Origin: a bacterium
GTDB taxonomy: Bacteria; Vulcanimicrobiota; Vulcanimicrobiia; Vulcanimicrobiales; SCRA01
Reading direction: 5' to 3'
Assembly: GCA_004298675.1 (NCBI GenBank)
Contig: SCRI01000087.1
Coordinates: forward strand, 1-41,808
Length of the DNA: 41,808 bases
Shown here: one piece after another, positions 5,448 to 20,034 of the stretch
How positions within the stretch are numbered: position 1 is the stretch's first letter
Layout of the letters: every line of letters begins with the position of its first letter
The notes under the pieces: model-generated
The model's input: only the letters and a program-made list of their open reading frames with translations
The model's database searches: none
What the model was told of the DNA's origin: nothing
Made by a program: the position numbers and the translations under genes

Positions 5448-6089
5448 ATGGAAGCGATGACTGGTACGATAAGGGTGGTGGTGGTTGAGGGGCAGGCTCT
5501 CTTCGGCAAGGCCCTCTGTCAAGTACTGGCGACGGATCGGGCTATCGAAGTCGTCGGCGACGCGGAGAACGTGGCGGCGGCGCCGCTCGTGGCTCTGCAT
5601 CCGGATCTCATCGTGTTGGATCTCGACGGGCACACCGTCGAGCTAGGTGACGCGATGGGCCAATGTCGCGCGGCGGCGCCCAATGCGCGTATCTGCGTGC
5701 TCTCCGCGCACTTGCAGCCCGAGGTCATGCAGCGTTGCCTGACCGCCGGAGCCGACGGCTACATCGTGAAAGACGTCACGCCCGCCGAGCTCATTCGTGC
5801 GGTCAAGACGCTTGCCGGCGGTTCCTCGTACGTCGATCCGCGTATCGCCGGGCACGTCTTGCGCCGGCGCAGCATGAACAACGGACGCGCCGATCTCAAC
5901 GAGCTCTCCGTGCGCGAGACGGAAGTCGTTCGCTTGATCGCCGAGGGCCTCTCGAACAAGGAGATCAGCGCCCGGCTGAAGCTCTCCGAGAAGACCGTCA
6001 AGAACCATATCAGCAGAATCTTCTCCAAGCTCAATATCACGGCCAGGACTCAGGCCGCCGTCCACGCGATCAAGACGGGCCTGGTATAA
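5448..6089 (+). CDS. NarL/FixJ-type response regulator with atypical receiver
   Basis: A 213-aa protein with a receiver domain (about 8-125) and a LuxR-type HTH (about 150-213, E-L-S-V-R-E-T-E-V-V...N-K-E-I-S-A-R-L). The phosphoacceptor-position D58 (V-L-D-L-D), S86 and K108 (I-V-K-D) are kept. The acidic pair that binds Mg2+ is V-E-G-Q (E14-G15) instead of V-D-D-H, so one carboxylate is missing. Phosphorylation may be weak, or output may be phosphorylation-independent. The start is ATG 5448 (AAGGAT at 5432) or ATG 5457. No histidine kinase is in the window. It sits divergently to another LuxR-type regulator and next to a receiver-only paralogue. Confidence 0.88.
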   Translation: MEAMTGTIRVVVVEGQALFGKALCQVLATDRAIEVVGDAENVAAAPLVALHPDLIVLDLDGHTVELGDAMGQCRAAAPNARICVLSAHLQPEVMQRCLTAGADGYIVKDVTPAELIRAVKTLAGGSSYVDPRIAGHVLRRRSMNNGRADLNELSVRETEVVRLIAEGLSNKEISARLKLSEKTVKNHISRIFSKLNITARTQAAVHAIKTGLV

Positions 6090-6132
6090 GGCAGTAGGAC
6101 CTCCCAACGGGGTCCCAAAGGCCACTACGCCG

Positions 6133-6178
6133 CCGTCCGAACGGGCGCTAGACTGAAATCCAACGCACGTTCGGACGG
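6133..6178. repeat. Inverted repeat (10-bp arms) ending at the RBS of the receiver-only gene
   Basis: CCGTCCGAAC (6133-6142) and GTTCGGACGG (6169-6178) are exact reverse complements separated by 26 nt. The right arm runs into the purine-rich GGGAGG (6177-6182) that precedes the GTG start at 6187. In RNA the stem could mask the RBS; in DNA it could be a pair of operator half-sites. It lies between the two receiver genes. Upstream, GGACC/GGTCC arms at about 6098-6115 form a weaker hairpin just after the first gene. Confidence 0.5.
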
Positions 6179-6186
6179 GAGGCGCT

Positions 6187-6597
6187 GTGGACCGGATACG
6201 GTCGTACGTCGTCGAAGCCCAGGGGATTTTCGCTCCGTATTTGGTGGCGATTCTGGCTGAGGCGGGGCTCGACGTCGTACACGTGGGGAACTCCATGGAC
6301 CTCCAGTTGATGAGTCATCTGGCGCCCGACCTGTTGTTCGTCGACTTGGATTACGTGGATGCCGATCCGTTGGAGTCGATCCGCATGACGCGCTTCATGT
6401 TGCCGCATGCGGTCATCTGCGTCTATACGGGCGATGCGCGTCCCGCGTGGGCGGCGGCATGCCATCTTGCCGGTGCCAACTGCGTGCTCACCAAGCGTGC
6501 TGAGGGCGAGGAGATCGTCGAGGGAATCCGTCGTGCGCTGGCCGTGGGAGCCTACACGGACAAACGCTACGAGACGCCCGAGTCGCCCACGTGCTAA
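6187..6597 (+). CDS. Stand-alone receiver-domain protein
   Basis: A 136-aa protein consisting of one receiver domain and no output domain. D53 (F-V-D-L-D), T81 (V-Y-T-G-D) and K103 (L-T-K-R) occupy the phosphoacceptor, switch and lysine positions. As in the neighbouring response regulator, the acidic pair is degraded (V-V-E-A-Q, E10-A11). The two genes share V-V-E-x-Q-x-(I/L)-F and probably arose by duplication and loss of the HTH. The GTG start has GGGAGG only a few nt upstream. The stop (6595-6597) overlaps the stop of the convergent nucleotidyltransferase gene. Its role may be phosphate sink or protein-interaction switch; the partner is unknown. Confidence 0.75.
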   Translation: MDRIRSYVVEAQGIFAPYLVAILAEAGLDVVHVGNSMDLQLMSHLAPDLLFVDLDYVDADPLESIRMTRFMLPHAVICVYTGDARPAWAAACHLAGANCVLTKRAEGEEIVEGIRRALAVGAYTDKRYETPESPTC

Positions 6598-7733
6598 CGC
6601 GTCAGGAAGGGCCGAAGCGCGCGGCGGGCGCCCCCGCTCAAGCGCGCCAGCAGCGAGCCGCGTCCGTCGTTCTCGGGGTGCGCCGAGGGGCGCAGGTTCT
6701 CCCAGAGCAGTTGCGCCCGCTCGTCGTTGCGCTCGAGCCAAGCCAGGCGCAGCCAGGTGCGGAAGCCCTCGCCTTGCGCGAAGAAGCGCGCCTGCGCGCG
6801 GGGTACGAGCCGCCGCGCCAGCGGGCCGCCGCGCCACGGCTCCAGCGTCGCCAGCATTGCGTGCGGCACGGGCGCGTCGAGCAGATCGCGCGCCATCTCG
6901 AGCGACGGCAGCAGCACCTGGCCGGCATGCTGTTGGCGTGTCAAGCCGCCAAGCAGCTCCCAGTTCAGACCCGCCCGTACGGTCTCCGCGATGTCCACCA
7001 AGCCGATGGCATGCGCGGTGAAGCCGTTGCCCCACGCCAGATGCACGGCCAGATGGATCGCGCGGTCCTCGGGCGACAACACCAGCGTCCGTTCCCCGCC
7101 CACGACCGCGAGCACTGCACGTTCGCGCATGCCATCGTAGTCGAGGCGGAACGGATGGGGGCGCCGCGCGAATCCCCAGTGCAGCTCGATCGTCATCCCG
7201 CCGCCGCTGCGCTGCAGCGGCGGCAAGTGGTAATAGTTGAGGTCGTACCAGGAGCGGTCGTGCGGCGACGCCGAGACCGCGTAGCCGATCTCACGCAGCA
7301 GCCGCTCCGCGCTTTCGATGTCGCCGCGCGGCAGCAGGACGTCGAGATCGCCGAATTGGCGCAGGCCGGTGTCGACGTAGAGCGCCTCCGCCAACGCCAC
7401 CCCTTTGAGTGCGACGGGGGCAAGTCCGCCGGCGTGCAGCGTGCGCAGCGCCTCCGCGGCGGCGTCCAGATAGAGCACGTTGCGCGCGCGTCCAAGGCGC
7501 AGCCGCTGCGCGAGCGCCTCGCGCGCCTTACGCGGAACCGCCTCCAACCCGTCGCACGCGCGCGCCAACAGCCCATCGTAGCGCAAGGCGGTCGCTTCCG
7601 CAACCAGCGCCTCCCAGTCGCCGACCGTGCCGGCCAACTGGGCCAGCTGCGTCCGATCCGCTTGCAGGCGCGCGCCGGCGAGGATGAAGCGGCGCTCCGG
7701 AGTCAGGCTCACCGCTATGGGTTGCACTGGCAT
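6594..7733 (-). CDS. Nucleotidyltransferase-fold protein (NTP_transf_5 type)
   Basis: A 379-aa protein of the uncharacterised nucleotidyltransferase family often found beside PqqD-like proteins, HPr-kinase-like proteins and lasso-peptide genes. Visible motifs are P-V-A-L-K-G (109-111 for LKG), then R-Q-F-G-D-L-D-V-L-L with the D129-x-D131 metal pair. E-L-H-W and A-I-H-L-A-V-H-L-A-W follow. In known lasso clusters with a kinase, such relatives extend a phosphate on the peptide; here that role is inferred from context. The ATG at 7733 is preceded by GGAGA. A longer in-frame start at 7802 would overlap the divergent ABC gene and is less likely. Only 37 bp separate the two divergent starts. Confidence 0.8.
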   Translation of the reverse strand: MPVQPIAVSLTPERRFILAGARLQADRTQLAQLAGTVGDWEALVAEATALRYDGLLARACDGLEAVPRKAREALAQRLRLGRARNVLYLDAAAEALRTLHAGGLAPVALKGVALAEALYVDTGLRQFGDLDVLLPRGDIESAERLLREIGYAVSASPHDRSWYDLNYYHLPPLQRSGGGMTIELHWGFARRPHPFRLDYDGMRERAVLAVVGGERTLVLSPEDRAIHLAVHLAWGNGFTAHAIGLVDIAETVRAGLNWELLGGLTRQQHAGQVLLPSLEMARDLLDAPVPHAMLATLEPWRGGPLARRLVPRAQARFFAQGEGFRTWLRLAWLERNDERAQLLWENLRPSAHPENDGRGSLLARLSGGARRALRPFLTR

Positions 7734-7770
7734 GGCGATGTCTTTTCTCCGGTCCCGCGAGGCAACCTTG

Positions 7771-8562
7771 ATGGCGTGCGTCGTCGCTGAAGGATTGACC
7801 AAGAGCTACCCTGAGACCGTCTCCCTGACGGCGTGGCTGCGCGCGCGCGGCAGGCCACAGCGGCGTGCCGCGTTGCGCGGCGTCAGCTTCACCGTGCGCG
7901 AAGGCGAAATCTTCGGGATCCTGGGCGCGAACGGTGCGGGCAAGACGACGATTCTGAAAATCCTCTCGACGCTGGTGGTTCCAGACGGCGGCCGGATGAG
8001 CGTGGCCGGACACGACGTGGCGCGCGAGCCCGCGCTCGTGCGCGGGGCCATCGGTCTCTGCCCGGCGGAGGAGCGCTCGTTCTACACGCGGCTCTCTGGG
8101 CGCGAAAATCTGCGTTTCTTTGGCCGCCTGCAAGGGCTGGGCGGGGCTGCGCTGGAGTCGCGCATCGAGTCGAGCGCGGTGCGTTTAGGGATCGCCGATC
8201 GTCTCGATGGGTTGGTCCAGGGCTACAGCACCGGCATGCGCCAGCGCCTCAATCTGGCGCGCGCGCTCCTGCCCGCGCCGCGCGTCCTCGTCTTGGACGA
8301 GCCTACCAAGGCGCTCGATCCGCTCTCCGCGTTGCGGCTGCGCCGCTTCGTGCGCGAGGAGTTGGTCGCACGCGACGGGCACACGGTGATCATCGCCACC
8401 AACCAGTTGGACGAGGCGTGGTCGCTGTGCGACCGGCTCCTGGTGCTCAGCGCGGGATGCGCCGTCGCGGAGGGCACCTGCCGAGAGTTGGAGGCGCTCA
8501 CGCCGGAAGCCAAACGAGCTGGGGCGCTCGAGAGTTTTCTGCATCTGGTGGGTGAGGCATGA
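7771..8562 (+). CDS. ABC transporter ATP-binding protein (switch His replaced)
   Basis: A 263-aa ATPase subunit. Walker A is G-A-N-G-A-G-K-T (52-59), the signature is Y-S-T-G-M-R-Q-R (152-159), and Walker B is V-L-V-L-D-E-P-T (172-179). The H-loop reads A-T-N-Q-L-D-E-A, with Asn211 where the switch histidine of S-T-H-x-x-D-E-A normally sits. This may slow hydrolysis. About 15 extra residues (P-E-T-V-S-L-T-A-W-L...) follow the A-loop Tyr13, as in several ABC-2 exporters. The start is ATG 7771 with GAGG upstream. It overlaps the permease gene by 4 nt. It is probably the exporter of the peptide product of this locus, though polysaccharide or drug export cannot be excluded. Confidence 0.9.
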   Translation: MACVVAEGLTKSYPETVSLTAWLRARGRPQRRAALRGVSFTVREGEIFGILGANGAGKTTILKILSTLVVPDGGRMSVAGHDVAREPALVRGAIGLCPAEERSFYTRLSGRENLRFFGRLQGLGGAALESRIESSAVRLGIADRLDGLVQGYSTGMRQRLNLARALLPAPRVLVLDEPTKALDPLSALRLRRFVREELVARDGHTVIIATNQLDEAWSLCDRLLVLSAGCAVAEGTCRELEALTPEAKRAGALESFLHLVGEA

Positions 8563-9368
8563 CCGCGCGCTTGATCTACGCCTTTGCCCGCCGCGACATC
8601 ATGGCGCGCTCGACCTCGCCGTTCTCGTGGGTGGTGCAGATCGCCTCGCTGCTCTTTTTCGCGAGCATGTTCTTCTTCATCGGAAGGACGTTCGATCAAA
8701 GCGCCGCGCCCTCGCTGCGCGGGTTCCACGGCCACTACTTCGCCTATGCCCTGGTGGGATTGGTCTTCGCGCGCTTTCAAACTGCCGCGCTGCAATCGTT
8801 CGCCACGGCAGTCCGCACCGACCAGACCGCGGGGACGCTGGAGGCGATGCTCGTGACCCGTGCGAGCGTGCCGGCGATCGTCTTCTCCGCCGGCGCCTGG
8901 TCCTTCGCCTACGCGGGCATTCAGGTCGTGCTCTACCTGCTGTTGGGGGCGCTGGTGTTCGGAGTCGACCTCCACCACGCCAACGTGCTGGCGGCGGCGC
9001 TCGCATTGCTACTGGCCGTGGCTGCAACCTCGCCGGTTGGCATTCTCGTCGCCGCCTGTGTGGTGGCGTTCCGGCAGGGCAACGCGCTGCTTTCGGTGAT
9101 CGCTGCCGCCACCAGCTTGCTCAGCGGTGTCTTCTACCCGGTCGCGGTGCTGCCGCGCGTGCTGCAAGTCTGCGCGGTGCTGCTCCCGCCCACCCACGCG
9201 CTCGATGCGTTGCGGCAAGCCGTCCTGTTGGGCGCGAGCGTGCGCGCGATCTGGCCCGACCTCTCGATCCTCCTGGGATTCGCGGCCCTGGGCATGCCCC
9301 TGGCGTTGGGTGCGTTCGCGCTGGCGGTGCGGCAGGCCAAGCGCGTAGGTTCTTTGTCCTACGTTTAA
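8559..9368 (+). CDS. ABC-2 type transporter permease
   Basis: A 269-aa membrane protein with about six hydrophobic segments, including W-V-V-Q-I-A-S-L-L-F-F-A-S-M-F-F-F-I near residues 24-42. It has the ABC-2 layout and the late L-P-P-T-H-A-L-D-A-L-R motif typical of the family. The ATG overlaps the ATPase stop (ATGA), so the two subunits are co-translated. One ATPase and one permease would give a homodimeric half-size exporter. The gene is followed by the promoter-like sequence at 9407 and the two small peptide ORFs. The substrate is not determinable by sequence; the next genes suggest a peptide. Confidence 0.88.
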   Translation: MTARLIYAFARRDIMARSTSPFSWVVQIASLLFFASMFFFIGRTFDQSAAPSLRGFHGHYFAYALVGLVFARFQTAALQSFATAVRTDQTAGTLEAMLVTRASVPAIVFSAGAWSFAYAGIQVVLYLLLGALVFGVDLHHANVLAAALALLLAVAATSPVGILVAACVVAFRQGNALLSVIAAATSLLSGVFYPVAVLPRVLQVCAVLLPPTHALDALRQAVLLGASVRAIWPDLSILLGFAALGMPLALGAFALAVRQAKRVGSLSYV

Positions 9369-9406: not shown

Positions 9407-9434
9407 TTGTCCAAACCAAGCCTGCTCCTAGAAT
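9407..9434 (+). promoter_or_regulatory. Sigma-70-like promoter for the small-peptide/PqqD/kinase genes
   Basis: TTGTCC (9407-9412), a 16-nt spacer and TAGAAT (9429-9434, 5/6 match to TATAAT). Predicted transcription starts near 9441, 28 nt before the first peptide ORF. GCTTGGT (9375-9381) and ACCAAGC (9415-9421) form a 7-bp inverted repeat that spans the -35 region. The repeat could be an operator or a weak end signal for the permease transcript. Confidence 0.45.
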
Positions 9435-9468
9435 CGTGACATGATCGCTCGCGTCCGAGGAGTGAGCT

Positions 9469-9579
9469 ATGCGTAGGTACAGTAAACCGGCGATTCTCGT
9501 TTCGTATCTGTCACGGGACATCTATGCGGCGGCTGCCGCGAGCTTCGGCTCTCCCGGCAGTGGGGTGACGCTCGGATGA
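9469..9579 (+). CDS. Candidate RiPP precursor peptide 1 (36 aa)
   Basis: A 36-aa ORF with a strong GAGGAG Shine-Dalgarno (9457-9462) six nt before ATG 9469. It begins M-R-R-Y-S-K-P-A-I, so Y4-x-x-P7-x-I9 matches the YxxPxL pattern by which lasso leaders bind their PqqD-like recognition protein. The second half is small and low-complexity: five Ala (20-24), then S-F-G-S-P-G-S-G-V-T-L-G. No Cys is present. There is no Gly followed 7-9 residues later by Asp/Glu, so a lasso ring is not predicted. Its stop overlaps the start of the second peptide (ATGA), and PqqD follows. The ORF is real on RBS, motif and context; precursor function is inferred. Confidence 0.65.
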   Translation: MRRYSKPAILVSYLSRDIYAAAAASFGSPGSGVTLG

Positions 9580-9704
9580 ATCCGTACGAGCAGCCCACGA
9601 TCCGCGCGTCGTTCCTCAAAGGCGACTTGCTGGGTTCCGTTGCCGCCTTTCAGTCGACGTACGTCAATTTCAACGACCCGATTCTCGACTTCGAGAATTC
9701 GTAG
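9576..9704 (+). CDS. Candidate RiPP precursor peptide 2 (42 aa)
   Basis: A 42-aa ORF translationally coupled to peptide 1 by ATGA overlap. It starts M-N-P-Y-E-Q-P-T-I; aligned without gaps to peptide 1, it shares Y4, P7, I9, S12, aromatic 13 and L14. The rest contains G-D-L-L-G-S (16-21), Q-S-T-Y (26-29) and an acidic tail D-F-E-N-S ending in Ser42. Kinase-containing lasso systems such as paeninodin phosphorylate a C-terminal Ser near acidic residues, so this tail is a plausible substrate for the kinase at 10004. No lasso-ring acceptor spacing is seen. The stop TAG overlaps the AGGAG RBS of the pqqD-like gene. Confidence 0.65.
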   Translation: MNPYEQPTIRASFLKGDLLGSVAAFQSTYVNFNDPILDFENS

Positions 9705-9712
9705 GAGAACGG

Positions 9713-9979
9713 ATGCTATACGAACGCGCCGAGCATCTCCAACTGCGTAAAGCAGGCGAGGAGATGCTCGTTCACGATCTCGCTAACGAGAAGATCCACG
9801 TGCTCAATCAGACGGCGGGAGACCTGCTCGAGCACTGCTCGCGCAGAACGCCGGAGGAGTTGGCGAGCTTCTTGCGCGCGCGCTACGAGGTCAACGGTCA
9901 AGACATTGACCGGGACGTGCGTGAGATCTTGGAGCGCTTCGTGGAGAACGGCCTCGTCAACGAGGTTCCAATCTCGTGA
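9713..9979 (+). CDS. PqqD-family RiPP recognition element protein
   Basis: An 88-aa stand-alone PqqD-like protein. It shows the family pattern: R-K-A-G-E-E-M-L-V-H-D-L (12-23), a second strand around K-I-H-V-L-N-Q-T-A-G-D-L-L-E, and a helical C-terminus, E-I-L-E-R-F-V-E-N-G-L-V. Such proteins are winged-HTH domains that bind leader peptides and hand them to modifying enzymes; in lasso systems the equivalent is B1. It lies 8 nt after peptide 2 with a tight AGGAG RBS (9703-9707). Its most likely ligands are the Y-x-x-P-x-I segments of the two peptides just upstream. Confidence 0.85.
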   Translation: MLYERAEHLQLRKAGEEMLVHDLANEKIHVLNQTAGDLLEHCSRRTPEELASFLRARYEVNGQDIDRDVREILERFVENGLVNEVPIS

Positions 9980-10003: not shown

Positions 10004-10873
10004 ATGAGGGGCGCGCGGCCGGAGGCGCCCGACCGCGCCTCCATGGATTTGCGCCACCGTATCGCCGGCATCACCCTATGCTTCGGGTCCGACGATGAGC
10101 GCGTGGCACTGCTGCAATCCCGGCGCTACCGGCGCATGCTCGTCGACGCTGGCTCAATCGCCGATGTCAATGCTTTTGCCGTCTGCCGCACCGACGACCC
10201 CTACGTCGTCGTCGACGACGAGATCGTGCATTGCTGCCGCAACGACGCTGCCGGTGAGCGCGGCTTCACCCCGGAGCTGATCGAAGGGCGCGCGATGCTC
10301 GAGGTCAACCGGCGGATCTTCGCGCGGCGCCCCGAGCTCGTGGTCTGCCACGCCGGCACCATGGTGCTGGGCGGCAAGGCCGTCGTCGTGGCCGGGCCGA
10401 GCCGGGCCGGAAAGAGCACGCTGATGCTGGCGCTGATGTTGGCGGTGCGGGGCGTGCGCATGCTCTCCGACGAGTTCGCGCTCGTCAACATCGACAAAGG
10501 TACGGTCGAGGCGTTTCCGCGCCTGCTCTCAGCGCGTCCCGGCACGCGCCGGCACCTGGGTCTCAACGTGCTTCATCTGGTGTGGGATGCCTTCGATCCG
10601 GCCGGCATTCTCGTCGAGAGTTGGGCCGACAAGGCTCCCATCGGCGAGGTCTTCGTGCTCGCGGGACACGACGGTTCCACGCGGGTGCGGCGTTTGGGCG
10701 AGGCCGAGGCGATGCTCGCGCTGCTGCCCAACGTGATGGGCGCGGAGCATGGTCTCGCGATTTTAGACAAGGTTGAAGCGGCGCTGAAAGGCGCCGCGGT
10801 TTACGAGCTGATTGCGGGGCCGCCGCAGGAGGCCGCCGCGACCGTGCTCGAGATCGTTCAACAGCGTGCTTGA
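10004..10873 (+). CDS. HPr kinase-like P-loop protein (HprK-related)
   Basis: A 289-aa protein of the HPr-kinase-like family. The P-loop is G-P-S-R-A-G-K-S-T (131-139). The family's second motif, G-V-R-M-L-S-D-E-F-A-L-V, places S155-D156-E157 at the catalytic/Mg2+ position. The N-terminal ~125 residues resemble those of HprK-related kinases in peptide clusters, not the N-domain of true HprK, and no ptsH is nearby. Relatives in lasso clusters phosphorylate a Ser of the precursor. ATG 10004 has GGAG ten nt upstream; ATG 10043 is an alternative. It follows the PqqD gene by 24 nt and overlaps or abuts the S26-like gene. Peptide phosphorylation is inferred. Confidence 0.82.
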   Translation: MRGARPEAPDRASMDLRHRIAGITLCFGSDDERVALLQSRRYRRMLVDAGSIADVNAFAVCRTDDPYVVVDDEIVHCCRNDAAGERGFTPELIEGRAMLEVNRRIFARRPELVVCHAGTMVLGGKAVVVAGPSRAGKSTLMLALMLAVRGVRMLSDEFALVNIDKGTVEAFPRLLSARPGTRRHLGLNVLHLVWDAFDPAGILVESWADKAPIGEVFVLAGHDGSTRVRRLGEAEAMLALLPNVMGAEHGLAILDKVEAALKGAAVYELIAGPPQEAAATVLEIVQQRA

Positions 10874-10880
10874 GGGCCCC

Positions 10881-11282
10881 GTGCCGTGGCTCGATCGCAT
10901 CGTGCGTCTGGCCGCGCCGCGCGCAGCGTTCACGGTCACGCTCTTTGGATGCAGTATGCGGCCGGCTTTGCGTGAGGGTGACCGGCTGATCGTCGAACCG
11001 TTGCAGTGCCGGCCGCATGTGGGCGACGTCGTCGTGTTTCCATACGCGGGGCGAATGCTCGCCCACCGCGTGATCGCATGTGCCGCCCGCGCACTCATTA
11101 CCGCCGGCGATGCCAGCAGCGGACAGCGCGAGCGCATCGCGCTGGAAGACGTGGTGGGTGTCGTACGCGCCGCGCGGCGCGGCGGCAGAGCGCTGCCGCG
11201 GCCCTCGTCGCGCATGCGCGCGCTGCTTTTGCGCGCACGACTGGCGATCGGTTATCGCCTGCGCATGGGCAGAGCGTCCTAA
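10881..11282 (+). CDS. Small soluble S24/S26-type peptidase (signal-peptidase-like, Ser/His type)
   Basis: A 133-aa protein with the S26 core and no membrane segment. Ser25 lies in L-F-G-C-S-M-R-P-A-L. G-D-V-V-V-F (48-53) precedes L-A-H-R-V, so His62 replaces the Lys of bacterial signal peptidase I, as in the archaeal/ER/SipW type. T-A-G-D (74-77) gives the expected acidic residue. GTG 10881 has GAGGG upstream; an in-frame GTG at 10866 would overlap the kinase stop. Such soluble members recur beside PqqD and nucleotidyltransferase genes. It may remove the leader of the small peptides, which would compensate for the missing lasso-type B2 protease. Catalytic activity is not proven by sequence. 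Confidence 0.7.
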   Translation: MPWLDRIVRLAAPRAAFTVTLFGCSMRPALREGDRLIVEPLQCRPHVGDVVVFPYAGRMLAHRVIACAARALITAGDASSGQRERIALEDVVGVVRAARRGGRALPRPSSRMRALLLRARLAIGYRLRMGRAS

Positions 11283-11409: not shown

Positions 11410-12438
11410 ATGTCTCGCATGTATCGATACGCGGTTGCCGCTGCGCTTGGGCTGAGCCTCTCCACACTGCTGGCCGCGTGCGGAGGGGGCGGGGGCGCGT
11501 CGAGCGGAGTTGGTGCCACCATTCCGCAGACTCCACCCGGGTCGAGTAACCCGACGCCGCCTCCGCCGCCGGTCATTCCGCCGCTCTCCGGAGATCCAAC
11601 CGGTCTGGCGGGGAATCAGTCGCTGCTCCAGCAGTTGTATGCCGATGCCGGACTCTCCAGCGAGTACGTCGCGAGTGCGGCACGCGCTCCACAAAGTCTG
11701 AGTCCTCAGAGCAGCGCCGTCTTCGCCGCGCAGGTCGCGGCGGGAACCTCGACCATCGCGCGCCCGAACAACGCCGCGAACGCCAGCACCGGCTTCCTCA
11801 TGACCTACCGCGATGCCGCCGGCAGCTGCGAGTGCAACTTCAACGGAAATCAGACGGCGCCGAATCCGCCCGCCGCCACCATGAGCGCGACGGGCTGGAA
11901 CAACGGTGCCGCCTACAAGACGGTGGGATCGGCGACGGTGGTGCTGCTGCCTTTCAGCGGACCCAATCTGCCGCTTCCCAGCGCTGGACCGTACACGTAC
12001 ACGGTCTCGGCGTGGCTGAACGATCCCACGGCGGTGAGCGCGACGAGCGGCTTCATCAACCCGAGCCTCGCGTTGCCGCGCGCGGCGACGCCGACGATCG
12101 TGGAGAACAAGGATAGTTCCGGGCATTTGCAGTCGATCTCCGTTTCCTGGGCACCGGTTACGGGGGCGACGCAATACTTCCTGAACTTTCTCACCAACGT
12201 GACGGCTAACGGCACGAAGGTGCCGACGCACGTCGCCGGCGTGGTGATCACGCCCGGTACGAGCATCACGATCGCGGCATCAGGCAACCTCTACACCAAT
12301 ACGGTATATCAGGTGCTGCTGATCGCCTCCGATCAGAGCTGGCTGAATGGCGTGCTGCTCTCGACCGCGCAGTCGCCGGCGCTGCCGGCGCAAGTCGACT
12401 GGTCCGTGTCGCAACTCGCATCGTTCCAGACGCCGTAG
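11410..12438 (+). CDS. Secreted lipoprotein with fibronectin-like region
   Basis: A 342-aa protein. ATG 11410 follows a GGAGG (11398-11402) RBS. A signal peptide ends at the lipobox L-A-A-C (21-24), followed directly by five Gly and a Pro/Ser-rich stretch. The mature part has a C-E-C-N-F motif and a later segment, S-I-S-V-S-W-A-P-V-T-G-A-T-Q-Y, that resembles a fibronectin III strand pair. It may be surface-exposed and glycan-associated, since it precedes the polysaccharide export gene by 19 nt. No enzymatic family is recognised. The 127-nt gap before it has no convincing promoter that I can see, although this is where the exopolysaccharide operon should begin. Confidence 0.75.
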   Translation: MSRMYRYAVAAALGLSLSTLLAACGGGGGASSGVGATIPQTPPGSSNPTPPPPPVIPPLSGDPTGLAGNQSLLQQLYADAGLSSEYVASAARAPQSLSPQSSAVFAAQVAAGTSTIARPNNAANASTGFLMTYRDAAGSCECNFNGNQTAPNPPAATMSATGWNNGAAYKTVGSATVVLLPFSGPNLPLPSAGPYTYTVSAWLNDPTAVSATSGFINPSLALPRAATPTIVENKDSSGHLQSISVSWAPVTGATQYFLNFLTNVTANGTKVPTHVAGVVITPGTSITIAASGNLYTNTVYQVLLIASDQSWLNGVLLSTAQSPALPAQVDWSVSQLASFQTP

Positions 12439-12457
12439 CCGGCAACGGAGAAGCACC

Positions 12458-13519
12458 GTGAGATACGCAACGATCGCCGCCCTTGCCTCGTTCGCCGTTG
12501 CCGCTGGATGGAGTCCGGCCCAAGCCGCGCTCCATCCCGGCGACCAACTCGCGATCACCGTCTACAATCATCCCGAGCTGCAGTCCAATGCCACCGTCGA
12601 CGGCTCCGGCAGAGTCTCGCTGCCGCTGGCGGGCCAGATCCAGGCCAAGGGTCTCGATACGCAGCAACTCGAGCGGCGCATCGTCGCGGCGCTCCAGCCG
12701 TACGTCATCAAGCCTGCCGTCGACGTGCGGCTGATCTCTCAGAATCCCGCCATCTTCCTCGCCGGCGGTCCCGGCGGCAGCCTCCTCTATCATCCCGGTG
12801 ACACGCTCGTGGGCGCACTGGGCGCGGTCAAGGTCGGCGAAGGCGTGGACACCGCGCGCGTGCGGATCGATCGCGACGGAGCGGAACTGGGTCCCTTCGA
12901 TCTCGCGGCACTGACGGCCAAGGGGAACGGCGGGCCGGTGTTGCAGCCCGGTGACACGATTCAGCTGCCGAGTAAACCCGTCGCCGTCAGCGTGGGTGGG
13001 GCCGTGCTGCATCCAGGTTTCGCGTACGTCAATCCAGGCGGCACGCTGCGTGAGGCCATCGACCAAGTTGGCGGGCCCGCACCCAACGCGGCTCTGACGC
13101 AAGTCGTGCTCGATCGCGGCGGCAGCCGCCAGGCGCTGGCGCTCTCCGGCAGCGATCTCTCGCAGCCCGCGCAGAACGGCGACCGCATCACGGTCCCGGA
13201 CGCGGCGCAAGTCGAGGTGGTTGGCATGGTCACCAAACCGGGTGTGGTGATGCTGCGCAACGACTTCACGTTGCTCAGCGCGTTGTACCAGGCCGGCGGA
13301 CCCGGTCAATACGCGGATATCCGCGCCGTCCAAGTGCTGCACGCAGGTCAGAAGAAGACCTACGACGTCACCGCGCTCACGCATGGGGATACCTCGCAGG
13401 ATCCGGCGCTGACCGATGGTGATGTGGTCTTCGTTCCCGAGGGCCACAAGATCGACTGGCGCAATCTGTTCTCGAGCATCGTGACGCTGCGCTGGTTCTT
13501 CCCGGGCGGGCGGTTCTGA
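12458..13519 (+). CDS. Polysaccharide export protein (Wza-like, SLBB domains)
   Basis: A 353-aa protein. GTG 12458 is chosen because GGAG sits 7 nt upstream and a clean signal peptide follows (cleavage after A-Q-A, about residue 24). Next comes the Poly_export domain, L-H-P-G-D-Q-L-A-I-T-V-Y-N-H-P-E-L, with strand pattern G-R-V-S-L-P-L-A-G. SLBB-like repeats follow (V-G-G-A-V-L-H-P-G-F...; V-V-G-M-V-T-K-P-G-V...). No lipobox Cys is seen, unlike E. coli Wza. It should form the periplasmic/outer-membrane exit of the polymer. Its stop overlaps the next ATG (TGATG). This gene is the main evidence for an outer membrane in this organism. Confidence 0.9.
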   Translation: MRYATIAALASFAVAAGWSPAQAALHPGDQLAITVYNHPELQSNATVDGSGRVSLPLAGQIQAKGLDTQQLERRIVAALQPYVIKPAVDVRLISQNPAIFLAGGPGGSLLYHPGDTLVGALGAVKVGEGVDTARVRIDRDGAELGPFDLAALTAKGNGGPVLQPGDTIQLPSKPVAVSVGGAVLHPGFAYVNPGGTLREAIDQVGGPAPNAALTQVVLDRGGSRQALALSGSDLSQPAQNGDRITVPDAAQVEVVGMVTKPGVVMLRNDFTLLSALYQAGGPGQYADIRAVQVLHAGQKKTYDVTALTHGDTSQDPALTDGDVVFVPEGHKIDWRNLFSSIVTLRWFFPGGRF

Positions 13520-14139
13520 TGCCCGCGGCGCAGCGGCCGGCATACTTCGTCTATCGCGAGCGCGTTGGATATCGGCTGCTGCGCCGGATCATGGACGTGG
13601 CGGTTGCGCTGCTGGCATTGCTGCTGCTGGCTCCGGTGCTGGCAGCGGCCATCGCAGCGATCGCGCTCGACGACGGTGCCCCGGTCCTGTTCCGCCAACG
13701 GCGGGTGGGCCGCTTCGAGCGCACCTTCACTATCTACAAGCTGCGGACGATGCGGCGGGAGAGCTGCGGCGACGCCTATACCGCGCGCGCCGGCGGCGAT
13801 GCGCGCGTCACCCGCGTGGGGCGTTGGTTGCGCAAGCTCTCGATCGACGAGATTCCGCAGCTCTTCAACGTGCTGCGCGGCGAGATGTCGCTGGTGGGCC
13901 CGCGTCCGGAGATGCCGTTCATCGTGGCGCGCTACCAGCCGTGGCAGCACGTGCGCCATCTGGCCCGGCCCGGAATCACCTGCATCTGGCAGACGCGCTG
14001 CCGTTCCACGATTCCGCTAGAGCGGCCCGAAGCCACGGCGTTGGATCTAGAGTACATGCGGCGTGCGTCCCTGCTGACCGACGGGGTCCTGTTGGCGCAA
14101 ACGCTGAGTGCGGTGCTCACGGCGCGCGGCGCGTATTGA
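13519..14139 (+). CDS. Initiating sugar-phosphate transferase (undecaprenyl-phosphate, Bac_transf family)
   Basis: A 206-aa protein of the PglC/WcaJ catalytic-domain type. One N-terminal hydrophobic segment (about 25-50) is followed by the conserved core: F-R-Q-R-R-V-G-R, then I-Y-K-L-R-T-M-R, then L-S-I-D-E-I-P-Q-L-F-N-V-L-R-G-E-M-S-L-V-G-P-R-P. R-P-G-I-T-C-I-W-Q comes later. These enzymes move a sugar 1-phosphate from a UDP-sugar onto undecaprenyl phosphate and start repeat-unit assembly. The short length means it lacks the multi-TM N-terminal domain of WcaJ. Which sugar is used is not visible. It is coupled to the export gene by a 1-nt overlap. Confidence 0.92.
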   Translation: MPAAQRPAYFVYRERVGYRLLRRIMDVAVALLALLLLAPVLAAAIAAIALDDGAPVLFRQRRVGRFERTFTIYKLRTMRRESCGDAYTARAGGDARVTRVGRWLRKLSIDEIPQLFNVLRGEMSLVGPRPEMPFIVARYQPWQHVRHLARPGITCIWQTRCRSTIPLERPEATALDLEYMRRASLLTDGVLLAQTLSAVLTARGAY

Positions 14140-14162
14140 AACAGCCTTATATGAGGAGCACG

Positions 14163-15476
14163 ATGTCCAAGAAGATCTGCATCGTCGGAACGGGCTATGT
14201 GGGCATGGCCAGCGCTATCGGTCTGGCGGAGCTCGGCTGGAGCGTCACCGGCTACGACATCATGGGCGAGCGCATTGCCGGCTTGCGCGCCGGTATCACG
14301 CCCTATCGCGAAGCCGGTATCGACGAGCCGTTGCATCGTCACCTAGCCTCGGGCGCGCTTTCATTCGTGACCGATCTCGCCGCCGCCGTGCGCGGTGCGC
14401 GCATCGTGATCCTCACGGTGGGAACGCCCTCCAGTGCCGATGGCTCCGCGGACCTGAGCGCGTTGAACGCCGCCGTCGAAGCGTTGCTGCATGTGCCGTT
14501 GGCACCGGCGGCAATCGTCGCGGTACGCTCGACGGTCCCCGTAGGCACCTCCGACGACCTGGCCGCGCGCTTAGCCGGACGAGCCCGCGTCGTCTACGCG
14601 CCGGAGTTTCTGCGCGAGGGCTCGGCGCTGCGAGACTTTCTGCACCCGGACCGCATCGTGGTGGGGACGGACTCGATTGGAGCGGCCACGGCCTACGCCG
14701 CGCTCTTCGAAGCGCTGGATGCCCCGGTCCTGATGACCTCGCGGCGCAATGCCGAGCTGATCAAGGGCGTCTCCAACGCCTTCCTGGCACTGAAGATCAG
14801 CTTTGCCAACGAGATCGCCAACCTCTGCGACGAGGTGGGCGCGGACTCCGGTGACGTGCTGCGCGGCGTAGGGTACGATCGCCGCATCGGCGGCGCGTTC
14901 CTGGCGCCGGGCATCGGCTTCGGCGGACCATGTTTCGAAAAGGACGTCAAGAGCCTGCGCCATGTTGCCGAGGGCGCCGGCACCGGCTACGAGCTGCTGC
15001 GCGCCGTGCTGCGCGTGAACGATGCGCAGCCTCTGCGCGTGGTCGCCGCGCTGGAGCGCGAGTTAGGCGGCTTGAAGGGCCGGACCATCGCGGTTTGGGG
15101 GCTGGCGTTCAAAGCCGGCACCGACGACGTGCGCGATTCGCTGGCGCTGCGCGTGCTGGAAGAGCTCTCGCGGCGCGGTGCGCGCGCCGTGGCTTACGAT
15201 CCGGCGGTGCGATCGGCGGCGCTGCCCCAAGGCTGCCGGATCGCGGCGAGCGCGCTGGAAGCCACCAATCGCGCCGATGCGCTGCTGTTGCTCACCGAGT
15301 GGCCGTCGTTCCGTGAGATCGATCCGGCTGCGCTAGCCGCATCGCTGCGGCGCGGGCTGGTCGTGGACGGACGCAATCTCTTGGACCCCGAGCGCTTCGC
15401 CGCGGCTGGGCTGCGGTATCGCGGGATCGGCCGGAGCCTCGATCCCGCTGCGCGCAGCCTAGCCGTTGCCGGTTGA
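14163..15476 (+). CDS. ugd: UDP-glucose 6-dehydrogenase
   Basis: A 437-aa NAD-dependent dehydrogenase. It has the Rossmann motif V-G-T-G-Y-V-G at the N-terminus, K201 in A-E-L-I-K-G, and catalytic Cys257 in G-I-G-F-G-G-P-C-F-E-K-D. Cap-domain motifs include W-G-L-A-F-K and D-D-V-R-D-S. It oxidises UDP-glucose to UDP-glucuronate. GDP-mannose or UDP-ManNAc use is possible in this superfamily, but the decarboxylase at 23341 supports UDP-glucuronate. ATG 14163 is preferred (AGGAG at 14154); an in-frame ATG at 14151 would swallow the RBS. Confidence 0.9.
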   Translation: MSKKICIVGTGYVGMASAIGLAELGWSVTGYDIMGERIAGLRAGITPYREAGIDEPLHRHLASGALSFVTDLAAAVRGARIVILTVGTPSSADGSADLSALNAAVEALLHVPLAPAAIVAVRSTVPVGTSDDLAARLAGRARVVYAPEFLREGSALRDFLHPDRIVVGTDSIGAATAYAALFEALDAPVLMTSRRNAELIKGVSNAFLALKISFANEIANLCDEVGADSGDVLRGVGYDRRIGGAFLAPGIGFGGPCFEKDVKSLRHVAEGAGTGYELLRAVLRVNDAQPLRVVAALERELGGLKGRTIAVWGLAFKAGTDDVRDSLALRVLEELSRRGARAVAYDPAVRSAALPQGCRIAASALEATNRADALLLLTEWPSFREIDPAALAASLRRGLVVDGRNLLDPERFAAAGLRYRGIGRSLDPAARSLAVAG

Positions 15477-15491
15477 GAAGGGAAGCGAGTC

Positions 15492-16820
15492 ATGGAATTC
15501 AAGGACGCATTGGAGATACTCTGGAGACGCCGTACCGCCGTCTTGTACGTGCTGCTTCTGGGCGTGATCGCCGGCCTCGCGGCGTATCTGCTGGTGCCGC
15601 GCATGTATCAGGCCACGGCCTCGACGCTAATCGTCGGGCAGGCGGTGGGGCGCGATCCGTCGATGAGCAGTCTCGACATGCCGACGCTGGTGCAGAGCGA
15701 GTCGGTGATCGACGCCGTCAAGCGCAAGCTGCACCTGCGGGTGCCGTTGCCGGTCATGCAATCGCGCATCGCGGCGAAGATCTCGCTCGGCTCGAGCGTC
15801 ATGCCCATCACGTATCAGGATCCGGATCCGCGGCAGGCCGTCGTCGTCACCAATGCGCTGGCAGCGGCTCTGGTGAGCTACTATCGCCAAATCTCAGGTA
15901 CGCGCTACGATGACCTCGCGCACTTCCTCAACAACGGCATGCAGCGCGAGCGCTCGCGCATGGAGGATCTCGACCGCAAGCTGCAAGAGGCGGCGGTCAA
16001 GGATCCCGCCGTCGGCCAAGCGCAGGCCACCGACGTCATCACCGGCCGGCTCCTGGCGCTGCAGGTCGAGCGCCAGCAAATCGAGGCGACGTTAGCCGGA
16101 CATCAGGCTGAAGCCGCCATCGAAGCGCGTCAATTGGAGCAGGTCCGTCCGTTGATCGACCAAGAGTTGGCCGATCGCGATCCCGCCTACAAAGCGCTGG
16201 CGGATCAGGCAGGGAAGGATCGCGCCCAACTGCGCGTCGACCGCGCGCAGTATACGGACAAGTATCCCGGCTTGCCGGGTCTGGAAGAGAAGGTAGCGCG
16301 TGAGAGTGCGGCGCTGACGGCGGCTGCCAAAGAGGCCGATGCGCGCCCGCCCGTGGCCAGCGCCACCTTTATGGCCCTGATGCAGAACAAGGGGCGCACC
16401 GATGCGCAACTCGCGGCCGATCGTGCGCAGCTCACGGCCATCGACGATCAGATCGGGCAGGCCCAGGCGCACCTCACGGCCATCCCGGGTCTGGGCGTGA
16501 AGATCGCCGCGCTGCGGCGCGATCGCGACGCGGCCAGCGCCGCGTATCAGCAGATGGCGCAGCGCTTGACCACCACGCTCTCCGATCAGGCCGAGGCGGC
16601 GGCGTTGGGCTCCGTGGTAGTCATCGACCGCGCGCGCTCCGCGCAGAGCGTCGTCTCCAAGCACGGCGCGCTGCTGGTGGCGGGTGCCGTGCTCGGTTTT
16701 CTCGTCCTTGGCATCACACTGGCCTTCTTGCTCGAGATCACCGACGTCAGGCTGCGTACGCCGCGTTCGGTTGAGGATCTGTACGGCCGGCCGGTCATCG
16801 CAACGATCGGCCGGGCCTAG
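15492..16820 (+). CDS. Wzz-type polysaccharide chain-length/co-polymerase protein
   Basis: A 442-aa protein with the classic Wzz layout. A cytoplasmic stub (M-E-F-K-D-A-L-E-I-L-W-R-R-R) precedes TM1 at 16-35. A long periplasmic region rich in Gln/Ala/Arg heptads (about 130-340) is predicted to be coiled-coil. TM2 lies at about 393-415, then a short cytoplasmic tail with R-S-V-E-D-L-Y-G-R-P-V-I-A-T-I. It controls polymer length and couples polymerisation to export. The ATPase half of tyrosine-kinase Wzc is absent here and is supplied by the next gene as a separate protein, as in CapA/CapB systems. Confidence 0.9.
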   Translation: MEFKDALEILWRRRTAVLYVLLLGVIAGLAAYLLVPRMYQATASTLIVGQAVGRDPSMSSLDMPTLVQSESVIDAVKRKLHLRVPLPVMQSRIAAKISLGSSVMPITYQDPDPRQAVVVTNALAAALVSYYRQISGTRYDDLAHFLNNGMQRERSRMEDLDRKLQEAAVKDPAVGQAQATDVITGRLLALQVERQQIEATLAGHQAEAAIEARQLEQVRPLIDQELADRDPAYKALADQAGKDRAQLRVDRAQYTDKYPGLPGLEEKVARESAALTAAAKEADARPPVASATFMALMQNKGRTDAQLAADRAQLTAIDDQIGQAQAHLTAIPGLGVKIAALRRDRDAASAAYQQMAQRLTTTLSDQAEAAALGSVVVIDRARSAQSVVSKHGALLVAGAVLGFLVLGITLAFLLEITDVRLRTPRSVEDLYGRPVIATIGRA

Positions 16821-16850
16821 CGACACGTGCACAACGGGGAGGGATCGACC

Positions 16851-17498
16851 GTGGAACAACACTTGCAAGAGAATTACCGCCTCCTGCGCGTCTCCGTCGA
16901 AGCGCTGGTGGCCGCGCCGGGGCTGATCGTCGTCTCGTCGGCGCTGAGCGGCGACGGCAAGACCGAGGTCGCGTGCGGACTCGCCCGCGCGCTGGCTGAG
17001 TGCGGCCACAAGACCGCGCTGATCGACACCAACTGGCAGCATCCCAGCGTGGCGGCGAGTCTGGGGATCGATGAGATTGCACCGGTCATGCAGCTCGATC
17101 GTATCGCGGACTCCGGCCGCAACGGCGCGGTGAAGAATCTCGAGGCGATCTCGGTGGCCGACCAGCGCTTCCCCGCGCTGATCTCCACGCCGGTCATGCA
17201 GGCGCTGATCGCGGATCTGCATTCGCGCTATCACTACACGATCATCGATTCGGCTTCGATCAACGTGGGCATGGCTGGACTGCAGTTTGCACGTTTCGCC
17301 GACGGCGTGCTGCTGGCGGTGCGTTTGGGCCGCGCTCCCAAACCTGCCGACAAGATGGCGATCGGGACCCTCGAGCGCGTGGGTGCGCGCGTGCTCGGCA
17401 TCGTGGCCACGGGTGCGCAGGAGCACACGCCCAAGAGCACGAGCATGGCCGCGTTCGAGCAGGAGCCCGCACGTGTAGCGGTCGGCGTGGGCGTGTGA
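16851..17498 (+). CDS. CpsD/CapB-like ATPase, probably not a tyrosine autokinase
   Basis: A 215-aa P-loop protein. It opens E-Q-H-L-Q-E-N-Y-R-L-L-R, like the E-x-x-R-x-L-R-T helix of BY-kinases. Walker A is S-G-D-G-K-T-E (33-39). Walker A' reads L-I-D-T-N-W-Q-H-P (D59-T-N61) where D-x-D-x-R-x-P is usual, so the second Asp is lost. Walker B is I-I-D133. The C-terminus has no tyrosine cluster. It probably partners the Wzz protein as a structural or ATP-binding regulator. GTG 16851 has GGGGAGGG seven nt upstream; an earlier GTG at 16827 is less well placed. The end overlaps the flippase start by 4 nt. Confidence 0.78.
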   Translation: MEQHLQENYRLLRVSVEALVAAPGLIVVSSALSGDGKTEVACGLARALAECGHKTALIDTNWQHPSVAASLGIDEIAPVMQLDRIADSGRNGAVKNLEAISVADQRFPALISTPVMQALIADLHSRYHYTIIDSASINVGMAGLQFARFADGVLLAVRLGRAPKPADKMAIGTLERVGARVLGIVATGAQEHTPKSTSMAAFEQEPARVAVGVGV

Positions 17499-18895
17499 GC
17501 AATTTCGCGCGCGTGCTCCGGAACGCCGCCAACCTCGGCACGGCCGAGGCGGCGGGGAGAGCCGTCGGCTTCGTGCGGACGGTGGTGCTCGCGCGCGTGC
17601 TCCACGCCGCTGGATACGGTACGTTCGCCGCCGCCATGGCGTTTGGCGTGCTGCTGGCAGCGCTGGCCGAAGCGGGGTTGTCGTACTTCACGGCGCGGGA
17701 GGTCGCGCGTGCGCCGCATGCGGCGCGGCGGTTGGTGTGGACGGCGTACGTACTGCACGCGGCGCTGTGCGTGGCGGCGCTCGCGCTGGGGTTGGCGGTG
17801 CTTCCGCTCTTCCGTTTCAGCGGTCAGGAGGCACTGGCCGCCATGCTGCTGCTGGCGGGTGCCTGCGCCGACGGCATGACGGGGCAGGCGCTGGCGCTCT
17901 TCCGTGGGCGTCAGCGCATGGGCGTGGAGGCGCGCGTGGTGACGTTTGGGCGCTTCGTGCTGCTGATCGGCGTGATCGCCGTCGCGGTCTTCGCGCCGAC
18001 GGTGCTGTGGGCCGCTGCGGTGACCGCGGTAGGCTCCGCCCTCACCGCCGCGATCGCCCTGACCGTTGCCGCGCTAGCCGAACGTCCGGTGCGCCCGAAG
18101 CGGCGCGAACTGGCGGCGGTGGCGCGTGCGGCGCTGCCGTTCGCGGCCAGCGGGTTGCTGAGCATGATCTATTTTCGCGTCGACGTGCTGCTGCTGCGCA
18201 TGCTCGGCATCGCCGACGCTCCCATCGGCGCCTACTCCGCCGCCTATCGCGTGATGGAGGCGCCGCGCTCGGCGCCGGGTGTCGTGGCTTCGGGCTTCTT
18301 CCCGGAGGCGGCGCGGCTGGCGCGCGAGGGCGACCGCGGCCGGCTGCTGAGCCTGGGGGCTCGTTCGTTGACGCTGGTGGTGGCCGCCGTGGTGCCGTTG
18401 TCGGTGGCGTTCGTCTCCGCACCCGCCTTCATCACACGCACGCTCTTTGGCGTGGACTTCTCCGGATCGGCGGAGCTGCTACGCATCCTGGCGCCGATGC
18501 CGGTGCTGATGGCGATGAATGCCATCGCTATCGCGTTGGTCAACGCTTCCGGTGGACAGCGTCGCGTGGTGACCATCTTCTCGGTCTGCACGGCGGTCAA
18601 CGTGGGCGCCAATCTACTGCTGATTCCGCTACTGGGCGTCACCGGTGCGGCCATCGCCACGGTGCTCACGGAAGCCGTGGAGCTGGTGGCATTCGTCCTC
18701 TGGATACGCGCCAACTTCGGCGCGCTGCGCGCACCGCTGACCGGCGTTGCGGTGGCGGGTGCCACGGCGCTGGCGGCTGCCGCCTTCGTGCCGGGGGCAC
18801 AGGGGCTCTGGCGCATCGTGGTCGCGACCGCCGCCTACCTGGGCGTGCTGGTGCCGCTGCTGCTGATAGCGCGCCGTGGAGTAGCGGCGGTATGA
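17495..18895 (+). CDS. Polysaccharide flippase (Wzx/MATE-like)
   Basis: A 466-aa integral membrane protein with about 12-14 hydrophobic helices. Polar linkers such as G-R-A-V-G-F-V-R-T-V-V-L-A-R-V-L-H-A-A-G-Y fall at helix 1-2, as in the polysaccharide_synt family of the MOP superfamily. It should flip the undecaprenyl-linked repeat unit across the inner membrane. The GTG start overlaps the previous stop (GTGA), and the stop overlaps the next ATG (ATGA). Position and size fit Wzx. Confidence 0.87.
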   Translation: MSNFARVLRNAANLGTAEAAGRAVGFVRTVVLARVLHAAGYGTFAAAMAFGVLLAALAEAGLSYFTAREVARAPHAARRLVWTAYVLHAALCVAALALGLAVLPLFRFSGQEALAAMLLLAGACADGMTGQALALFRGRQRMGVEARVVTFGRFVLLIGVIAVAVFAPTVLWAAAVTAVGSALTAAIALTVAALAERPVRPKRRELAAVARAALPFAASGLLSMIYFRVDVLLLRMLGIADAPIGAYSAAYRVMEAPRSAPGVVASGFFPEAARLAREGDRGRLLSLGARSLTLVVAAVVPLSVAFVSAPAFITRTLFGVDFSGSAELLRILAPMPVLMAMNAIAIALVNASGGQRRVVTIFSVCTAVNVGANLLLIPLLGVTGAAIATVLTEAVELVAFVLWIRANFGALRAPLTGVAVAGATALAAAAFVPGAQGLWRIVVATAAYLGVLVPLLLIARRGVAAV

Positions 18896-20034
18896 ACGTC
18901 GCGCTTGTGGCCCCGCGCTTTCCGCCCTGCTTCGACGGCGTGGGCGATCATGCGGCGCATCTGGCCGAGGCGCTCGCGCGCGCTGGCCACACGGTCACGG
19001 TGTTGAGCGAGGGGCGTCCGCTCCCACAGAGCGCGTACCGCGTCCAAAGCGTGGGCGATGCCTGGAGCACGCGTGCCGTGCGCGAGGTCCATCGCGCGGT
19101 CGGAGCGTGCGGCGCTGATCTGTTGGTCGTGGAGTACACGCCGTTCAACTTCGGTGCGGCGTCGATGGCGCCGGCCGTGCTCCCCAGGATGGCGCGTGCG
19201 CGCGGCATCCGCGCGGCGTTGATCGTTCACGAAGCCTTCCACGCCGAACGCGCCGGCATTCGCAGCCTGGCCAAGCGGCGTTTTCTGGAGGCGCGCGACC
19301 GCCTCGTGCTGGCTGGAGCAGACGCCGTCTGCATCGCGAATGATGCCTTGCGCGAGCGTATCGTGCACGAGCTTCCCGCGCTGCTGAGCCGGGTCGTGAC
19401 GGTGCCCATCGCCGCCAATATCGAGCCGTCGCCGTCACAGAAGTGGCTGCCGCAAACACGCGGGCGCGTGCGCCTGGTGACCTTCGGAGTCGTTGCACGA
19501 CGGCGTAGACTCGAGCTGCAGATCCGCGCCTTGGAGGCGTTGGTGCGCGGCGGCGTCGACGCCGAGCTGCGTGTCGTGGGCAGAGTCTTCGATCGCGAGT
19601 ATGCCGAGGCGTGCCGCCGGCTGGCGGCGGAGCTGGGGATGGGCGCACGTGTGTATCTGCTCGGCACGCTGCCCGGGGAAGAGGTTAGCGCCGAGTTGCT
19701 CGCTGCCGACCTCGCGCTGCACACCGCCGAGGAGGGCTCGATTCCGTCGAGCGGCGCGCTGCTCTGCCTCATGGCGCACGGCCTGCCGATCGTCGCGGCC
19801 GCCACGGTGCACGACGTGGCGCCGTTCACGCTGGCGGTGCGCGGTGTAGCGGCGCAGGCGCCGGCGCTGGCGGCCACCGCCGCGGACTTCCTGCGCGGAG
19901 CGTTGGATCGCGCGGCCGCCGGCGCGCGTTGCCGCGAGATCTACGAATCGAACTACGCCTGGCGCGAGATCGCCGAGCGCGTCGCGGCGCTGGGCGCCAC
20001 CCCACGGAGCGTGCGCTATGCAGCAGGTCTCTGA
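18892..20034 (+). CDS. GT4-like glycosyltransferase with incomplete E-x7-E motif
   Basis: A 380-aa GT-B protein. The N-terminus is V-A-L-V-A-P-R-F-P-P-C-F-D-G-V-G-D-H, a GT4 acceptor-domain start. The second domain begins around V-T-F-G-V-V-A-R-R-R. In the catalytic region, H-T-A-E-E-G-S-I-P-S-S-G-A-L-L, the first Glu is present but the second position is not Glu, so donor binding may differ. ATG 18892 overlaps the flippase stop. The frame is open far upstream, but that part is a shadow of the flippase gene. The 3' end overlaps the next gene by 17 nt. Confidence 0.8.
   Translation: MNVALVAPRFPPCFDGVGDHAAHLAEALARAGHTVTVLSEGRPLPQSAYRVQSVGDAWSTRAVREVHRAVGACGADLLVVEYTPFNFGAASMAPAVLPRMARARGIRAALIVHEAFHAERAGIRSLAKRRFLEARDRLVLAGADAVCIANDALRERIVHELPALLSRVVTVPIAANIEPSPSQKWLPQTRGRVRLVTFGVVARRRRLELQIRALEALVRGGVDAELRVVGRVFDREYAEACRRLAAELGMGARVYLLGTLPGEEVSAELLAADLALHTAEEGSIPSSGALLCLMAHGLPIVAAATVHDVAPFTLAVRGVAAQAPALAATAADFLRGALDRAAAGARCREIYESNYAWREIAERVAALGATPRSVRYAAGL

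Follow-up and report, generated by a model that had tools for sequence, protein, structure and literature searches.

Two overlapping small genes with YxxPxI leaders beside a PqqD gene as probable precursors of an LPP-like RiPP system

In the window, by which we mean the whole stretch of 41,808 nucleotides of contig SCRI01000087.1 that was analysed, two small open reading frames were found on the forward strand in the gap between a permease gene and a gene encoding a PqqD-family protein. The first (ORF1, 9469..9579) encodes a peptide of 36 aa, MRRYSKPAILVSYLSRDIYAAAAASFGSPGSGVTLG, with a YxxPxI leader, and the second (ORF2, 9576..9704) encodes one of 42 aa, MNPYEQPTIRASFLKGDLLGSVAAFQSTYVNFNDPILDFENS. 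ORF1 has a GAGGAG ribosome-binding site (9457..9462, +) six bases before its ATG, which reads AAGGAG in a relative of the same genus, and the stop of ORF1 overlaps the start of ORF2 in an ATGA at 9576-9579. The ATG of the PqqD gene is at 9713, 8 nt downstream of ORF2. For the peptide operon, a consensus scan gave a weak candidate promoter (TTGTCC-16-TAGAAT, 9407..9434, +), whose TAGAAT box is conserved in the alignment with the same relative.

The first-pass annotation of this DNA had described two overlapping ORFs sharing Y-x-x-P-x-I in register, a gapless N-terminal match at Y4, P7, I9, S12, aromatic 13 and L14, a GAGGAG site before the first ORF, ATGA coupling of the second and a PqqD gene 8 nt further on. 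All of these features were seen again, and D17 can be added to the residues that the two peptides have in common. Neither peptide matched any Pfam family. A match of ORF2 to the CrpP family (E 0.025, 14.7 bits against a cut-off of 55) was rejected as noise.

The relative used for comparison is a genome of the same genus (G029, contig 68, which is SCRA01000077.1 of MAG FW021_bin.48), with which the window is collinear for 29.5 kb at 78.7% identity and in which the two peptides have the counterparts MRRYRKPTIVVSFQTKDIYAAAAASFGSPGSGETIG and MKLYEAPIIRASFSENDVLGTVAAFQSTYVNFNDPILDFENG. Frameshifts or stops in close relatives had been named as evidence against the two genes, and dN/dS across relatives as a check. 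Both ORFs are intact in this genome, with identical starts, stops and overlap and a good ribosome-binding site, and the dN/dS values are 0.075 for ORF1 and 0.125 for ORF2, next to 0.122 for the PqqD gene. ORF1 shows 9 amino-acid changes where 17 were expected by permutation (P=1e-4), and ORF2 shows 10 where 20 were expected, none of 20,000 permutations giving so low a number. Third codon positions hold 18 of the 28 differences in ORF1 and 19 of the 32 in ORF2. Both ORFs, of 36 and 42 aa, are genuine genes, coding and conserved.

The first-pass annotation had also expected a conserved leader followed by variable cores. This stands for the comparison of the two peptides with each other, as their C-termini differ, but not for the comparison within the lineage. 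Only two amino-acid changes fall in codons 19-36 of ORF1 and likewise two in codons 20-42 of ORF2, the C-terminal part of each peptide being better conserved in the relative than its own leader, and the cores are therefore not hypervariable within a lineage.

The same leader, which aligns without gaps and has the pattern Y-x-x-P-x-[VI]-x-[AV]-[ST]-..-[AGST]-x-[AV], is encoded by small ORFs in eleven other genomes of the phylum (Eremiobacterota-type), with 1-3 such ORFs per genome. These ORFs adjoin kinase genes, most of them have a Shine-Dalgarno sequence, and in several genomes they form tandem pairs or triples. When 21 precursors were aligned without gaps on the Tyr, the Y, P and V/I were in register in all 21, these being the residues (Y, P and +5) by which the family precursors were selected. 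Counted from the Tyr, the consensus has [VI] at +5 and [ST] at +8, with mostly [AV] between them at +7; positions +9, +14 and +15 are hydrophobic, +16 is mostly [AGST], +18 is [AV] and +20 is mostly [GA]. A leader matrix trained on only 14 precursors, all from other genera, was applied to the 61,892 stop-free 21-mers in the six frames of the window and ranked ORF2 first and ORF1 second. Without Y and P the ranks were 1 and 24, and with +7 to +20 only they were 1 and 275. ORF2 is thus an independent match to the family, and the case for ORF1 depends more on the Y, P and I, on its position and on the selection acting on it. Short ORFs are common in the G+C-rich DNA of the window and two of them might have arisen by chance in the gap before pqqD; against this, the purifying selection, the conservation of start, stop, overlap and ribosome-binding site and the match to the leader matrix leave such an explanation with practically no weight.

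The genes around the two peptides can be set beside the lppAKBSDN genes of Paenibacillus alginolyticus, which belong to the Linear Polyphosphorylated Peptides (LPP) of Popov et al. 2026 (PMC13381572) and whose parts include an RRE (LppB), an HprK-like kinase (LppK), an archaeal-type signal peptidase (LppS), an NTP transferase (LppN) and an exporter (LppD). The PqqD gene (9713..9979, +) encodes a discrete, LppB-like RRE of 88 aa (PF05402, E 5e-12), which also matches TIGR04353 (PqqD_rel_X) with an E of 3e-5, below the curated cut-off. Its AF2 model has a pLDDT of 93.8, and the best Foldseek match is the TbiB1-leader complex, with a TM of 0.82. Searched against PDB sequences, the family profile gave TfuB1 (1.5e-7) and TbiB1 (1.9e-5), and only weakly LppB (9x8z, 0.21). 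The closest solved relatives, in sequence as in fold, are thus lasso B1 proteins with bound leaders, namely TfuB1 and TbiB1. Moreover, N32 and D68 are invariant in all 15 aligned RREs. In LppB, N33 holds the Pro and D70 the Tyr of the leader (PMC13381572), and an equal-length placement of RRE residues 26-86 on residues 43-103 of the 9x8z chain would bring N32 and D68 onto N33 and D70 if the numbering of the chain is offset by 18, so that the two pairs appear to correspond. The role of this protein as the predicted binder of the YxxP leader is well supported.

Downstream of the RRE lies a gene for an HprK-like P-loop kinase, LppK-like (10004..10873, +), with a match to TIGR04352 (HprK_rel_A, E 4e-14) that is also below its cut-off. 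It has a Walker A motif S-x-x-GKST and a DE pair, and its model, of moderate confidence (pLDDT 69), has a fold like that of HprK and of its relative PEP carboxykinase (PEPCK); a search against PDB sequences gave no useful direct match. The next gene (10866..11282, +), which probably starts at a GTG that overlaps the stop codon of the kinase gene, encodes an S26 protein like the archaeal-type signal peptidases (TIGR02228, E 2e-8; PF00717), which is LppS-like and the predicted leader peptidase. Among curated models it scores best against archaeal and bacterial signal peptidase I, and the catalytic Ser, His and Asp (in SM-x-P, AHR and GDA) are invariant in the seven aligned peptidases. Upstream of the peptides are an NTP_transf_5 nucleotidyltransferase, LppN-like, on the reverse strand (ORF bounds 6594..7802, start probably ~7733; PF14907, E 3e-41), the ATPase of an ABC exporter (ORF bounds 7627..8562, +, start probably ~7800; PF00005, E 3e-29) and an ABC-2 type exporter permease (8559..9368, +; PF01061, E 3e-19).

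Directly before the nucleotidyltransferase, at 5448-6597 of the window, are genes for a response regulator of the LuxR type and for a receiver-like protein, which may be regulators of the peptide genes or of those for exopolysaccharide (EPS). A Wzy-type EPS locus occupies positions 12347-21454, with genes for Poly_export, a sugar transferase, a UDP-sugar dehydrogenase, Wzz, a ParA/CbiA-type ATPase, Wzx and Wzy. The genome of the window also carries a second HprK-like gene (L035:10151-11077), near a gene for an ABC protein and with no PqqD in the stretch read, and the same-genus relative likewise has a second one (L034).

The set of PqqD, HprK, S26-like peptidase and NTP_transf_5 was found in 16 of the 149 genomes searched in the phylum, that of the window included. 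The usual order is peptides, kinase or kinases, peptidase and nucleotidyltransferase, with the ABC pair and the PqqD gene alongside. An HprK-like kinase is present in every one of these 16 cassettes, frequently in two copies, and the ABC ATPase and permease are present in 15. In most cassettes the peptidase and NTP_transf_5 are fused into one protein of ~500-600 aa; they are separate in the window, in the same-genus relative and in RYN_347 (L128), which is recorded as Candidatus Eremiobacterota and belongs to the same order. This fusion indicates that the two separated genes of the window belong to one system. A genome scan with the close PqqD alignment gave six loci, five of them of the LPP-like system and one a different cassette. 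In the two remaining genomes of the genus (G030 and G031) there was no PqqD, HprK or NTP_transf_5 match, and their EPS region is either not syntenic or not assembled; the presence of the cassette thus appears patchy within the genus, as was also reported for the LPP of Bacillota (PMC13381572). The named relatives are metagenome-assembled drafts, in which a gene that is present is a surer finding than one that is missing.

We also observed a second type of cassette in the phylum (L097, L117, L126, L105 and the left part of L050), which contains an HprK fragment, a B2 Transglut_core3 and NTP_transf_5, with no Asn-synthetase cyclase. The first four of these loci also encode a PqqD-like protein whose C-terminal tail ends in SAFDPSxPLxE, and L105 has two precursors with the leaders YEPPKVIVSLDAL. 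One genome (G082) has this second type ~10 kb from its LPP-like cassette. In addition, a locus of a Proteobacteria MAG (L132:9878-13151) combines PqqD and HprK-like genes with a small ORF, MKKEYESPKVITYSEDEIIDLLGPAQTCSPSPCPTYQ, and a gene for a radical-SAM-like protein with CxxxCxxC; this is another RiPP-type cassette, distinct from the others although its leader is similar.

Across the family, the [AGST]-x-[AV] at +16 to +18 from the Tyr resembles a signal-peptidase site. At the cut predicted from it, Glu stands at -2 in 10 of the 21 precursors and Ser at +3 in 10. For comparison, LppA is cut in F-E-T before A-Q-S, which also places Glu at -2 and Ser at +3 (PMC13381572). In peptide 1 the predicted cut would fall after A22 (AAA), which would make S25 position 3 of the core. 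For peptide 2 the prediction is ambiguous, the cut being placed after either V22 or A24 (GSV/VAA), and S27 would be position 3 in the latter case.

The YxxPxI leader and the likeness of the PqqD protein to lasso B1 proteins might suggest that the peptides are lasso precursors and the PqqD protein their B1. HprK and NTP_transf_5 are, furthermore, known lasso tailoring enzymes (PMC13381572). However, no B2 Transglut_core3 matched in the whole draft genome, which is 98.5% complete, and the only Asn_synthase match there is a weak fragment of 72 columns and 21 bits on another contig. The sister cassettes tell the same, with no cyclase in the stretches read of the 16, and 10 of the 16 genomes gave no B2 anywhere. 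The putative core of ORF1 (residues 23-36) has no D or E at all, and so none at core positions 7-9 for closing a ring. A lasso product is largely refuted by the missing B2, the missing cyclase and this acid-free core, and we consider it very improbable. The motif together with a B1-like RRE is a feature common to lasso and LPP systems. The earlier reading, in which a YxxPxL-like motif would be bound by the PqqD protein in the B1 manner, is therefore retained for the tandem RiPP-type precursors, the YxxPx[I/V] motif and the B1-like RRE, and given up for the lasso class.

We propose that both ORFs encode precursor peptides of an LPP-like RiPP system, to which we give a probability of about 0.8. 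The PqqD-type RRE would capture each leader via Y4-x-x-P7-x-I9 and present the peptide to the HprK-like kinase, which would phosphorylate a Ser near the start of the core, the likeliest sites being S25 of peptide 1 and S27 of peptide 2. The archaeal-type signal peptidase would then remove the leader at the small-x-small site ~18 residues past the Tyr, near residues 22-24. The NTP_transf_5 enzyme might add a further group to the phosphate, and the ABC-2 exporter might move the linear product out of the cell, possibly to the cell surface or to the exopolysaccharide of the adjacent locus. Leader binding, phosphorylation and cleavage are suggested here by analogy with the LPP experiments, in which Ser3 of the core was phosphorylated and cleavage was assisted by the RRE (PMC13381572); the details of the nucleotidyl-transfer and export steps and the biological role are speculative. 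Against this reading are the departures from the LPP leader, its spacing and its exporter described below, the published restriction of LPP to Bacillota, the presence of Ser at the predicted core position 3 in only 10 of the 21 precursors, the ambiguous site of peptide 2, the HprK match below the curated cut-off and the confidence of the kinase model, which is only moderate.

As the locus abuts the Wzy/Wzx-type EPS cluster and two response-regulator genes, the RRE and kinase might instead sense or control exopolysaccharide synthesis, with the peptides acting as unsecreted signals or regulators. The leader peptidase of all 16 cassettes and the ABC exporter of 15 argue for a product that is processed and exported, which makes such a regulatory role hard to believe.

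A less remote, though still unlikely, possibility is a distinct RiPP class that arose by convergence, reusing RRE, kinase and signal-peptidase parts, and whose defining chemistry would be not polyphosphorylation but the reaction of NTP_transf_5, such as nucleotidylation or the transfer of a glycosyl-phosphate. The fusion that most of these genomes have between NTP_transf_5 and the peptidase, of which we found no mention for the LPP of Bacillota, would fit such a class, as would the different leader consensus and exporter and the fact that no activity was seen for LppN in the published heterologous host (PMC13381572). Nevertheless the set of components is otherwise that of LPP, and the kinase is always present and often twice. 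In a more specific form, to which we give a similarly small chance, a separate Eremiobacterota class would use its peptidase/nucleotidyltransferase to couple leader removal to the transfer of a nucleotide- or sugar-phosphate onto the phosphoserine. If this were true, small Ser/Gly/Cys/His-rich peptides would end up attached to surface polysaccharide or decorated like it.

Under the preferred LPP-like reading, a RiPP family described only in 2026 and stated to be restricted to Bacillota (PMC13381572) would now be found in a second, distant and uncultured phylum, and frequently so. The fusion with the peptidase would point to a coupled last step for LppN. Moreover, the family offers ~20 natural precursors in which the leader aligns without gaps and a small-x-small site recurs at constant spacing from the Tyr, so that RRE binding and leader cleavage by the signal peptidase become directly testable.

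Among known systems, the HPr-rel-A system (TIGR04352, TIGR04353), on which our literature search found no paper, has the same pair of PqqD and HprK-like proteins, whereas those of the window stay below the curated cut-offs of both models. Phosphorylated lasso systems of the paeninodin and Bsf type resemble the locus in the RRE (B1), HprK-like kinase, NTP transferase and YxxP/WxxP leader, and differ from it in having a B2 cysteine peptidase and an Asn-synthetase-like cyclase. The comparison with LPP, of which the leaders are YxxPxV and the loci lie inside capsular polysaccharide loci (PMC13381572), goes much further. Differences do exist. The HQ and FET of the full consensus YxxPxVLxHQxIxFETxxS occur in none of the 21 precursors, the Tyr lies 18 residues from the presumed cut instead of 15, and the cores are of roughly 10-25 aa against 45 in LppA. 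The exporter is an ABC-2 ATPase and permease instead of an MsbA-like protein, two HprK-like genes and the peptidase fusion are common, and this branch belongs to another phylum; Bacillota relatives sought in plasmids were not found. As both an MsbA-like exporter and the complete consensus of the leader are lacking, we do not claim strict membership of LPP. The locus shares with LPP the YxxPxV/I leader, 1-3 precursors, a discrete RRE with an archaeal-type signal peptidase of intact Ser/His/Asp beside it, an HprK-like kinase, an NTP transferase, ABC export, a cluster free of cyclase and adjacent polysaccharide genes, here an exopolysaccharide locus, and we are inclined to regard it as an LPP-like variant that would work like LPP.
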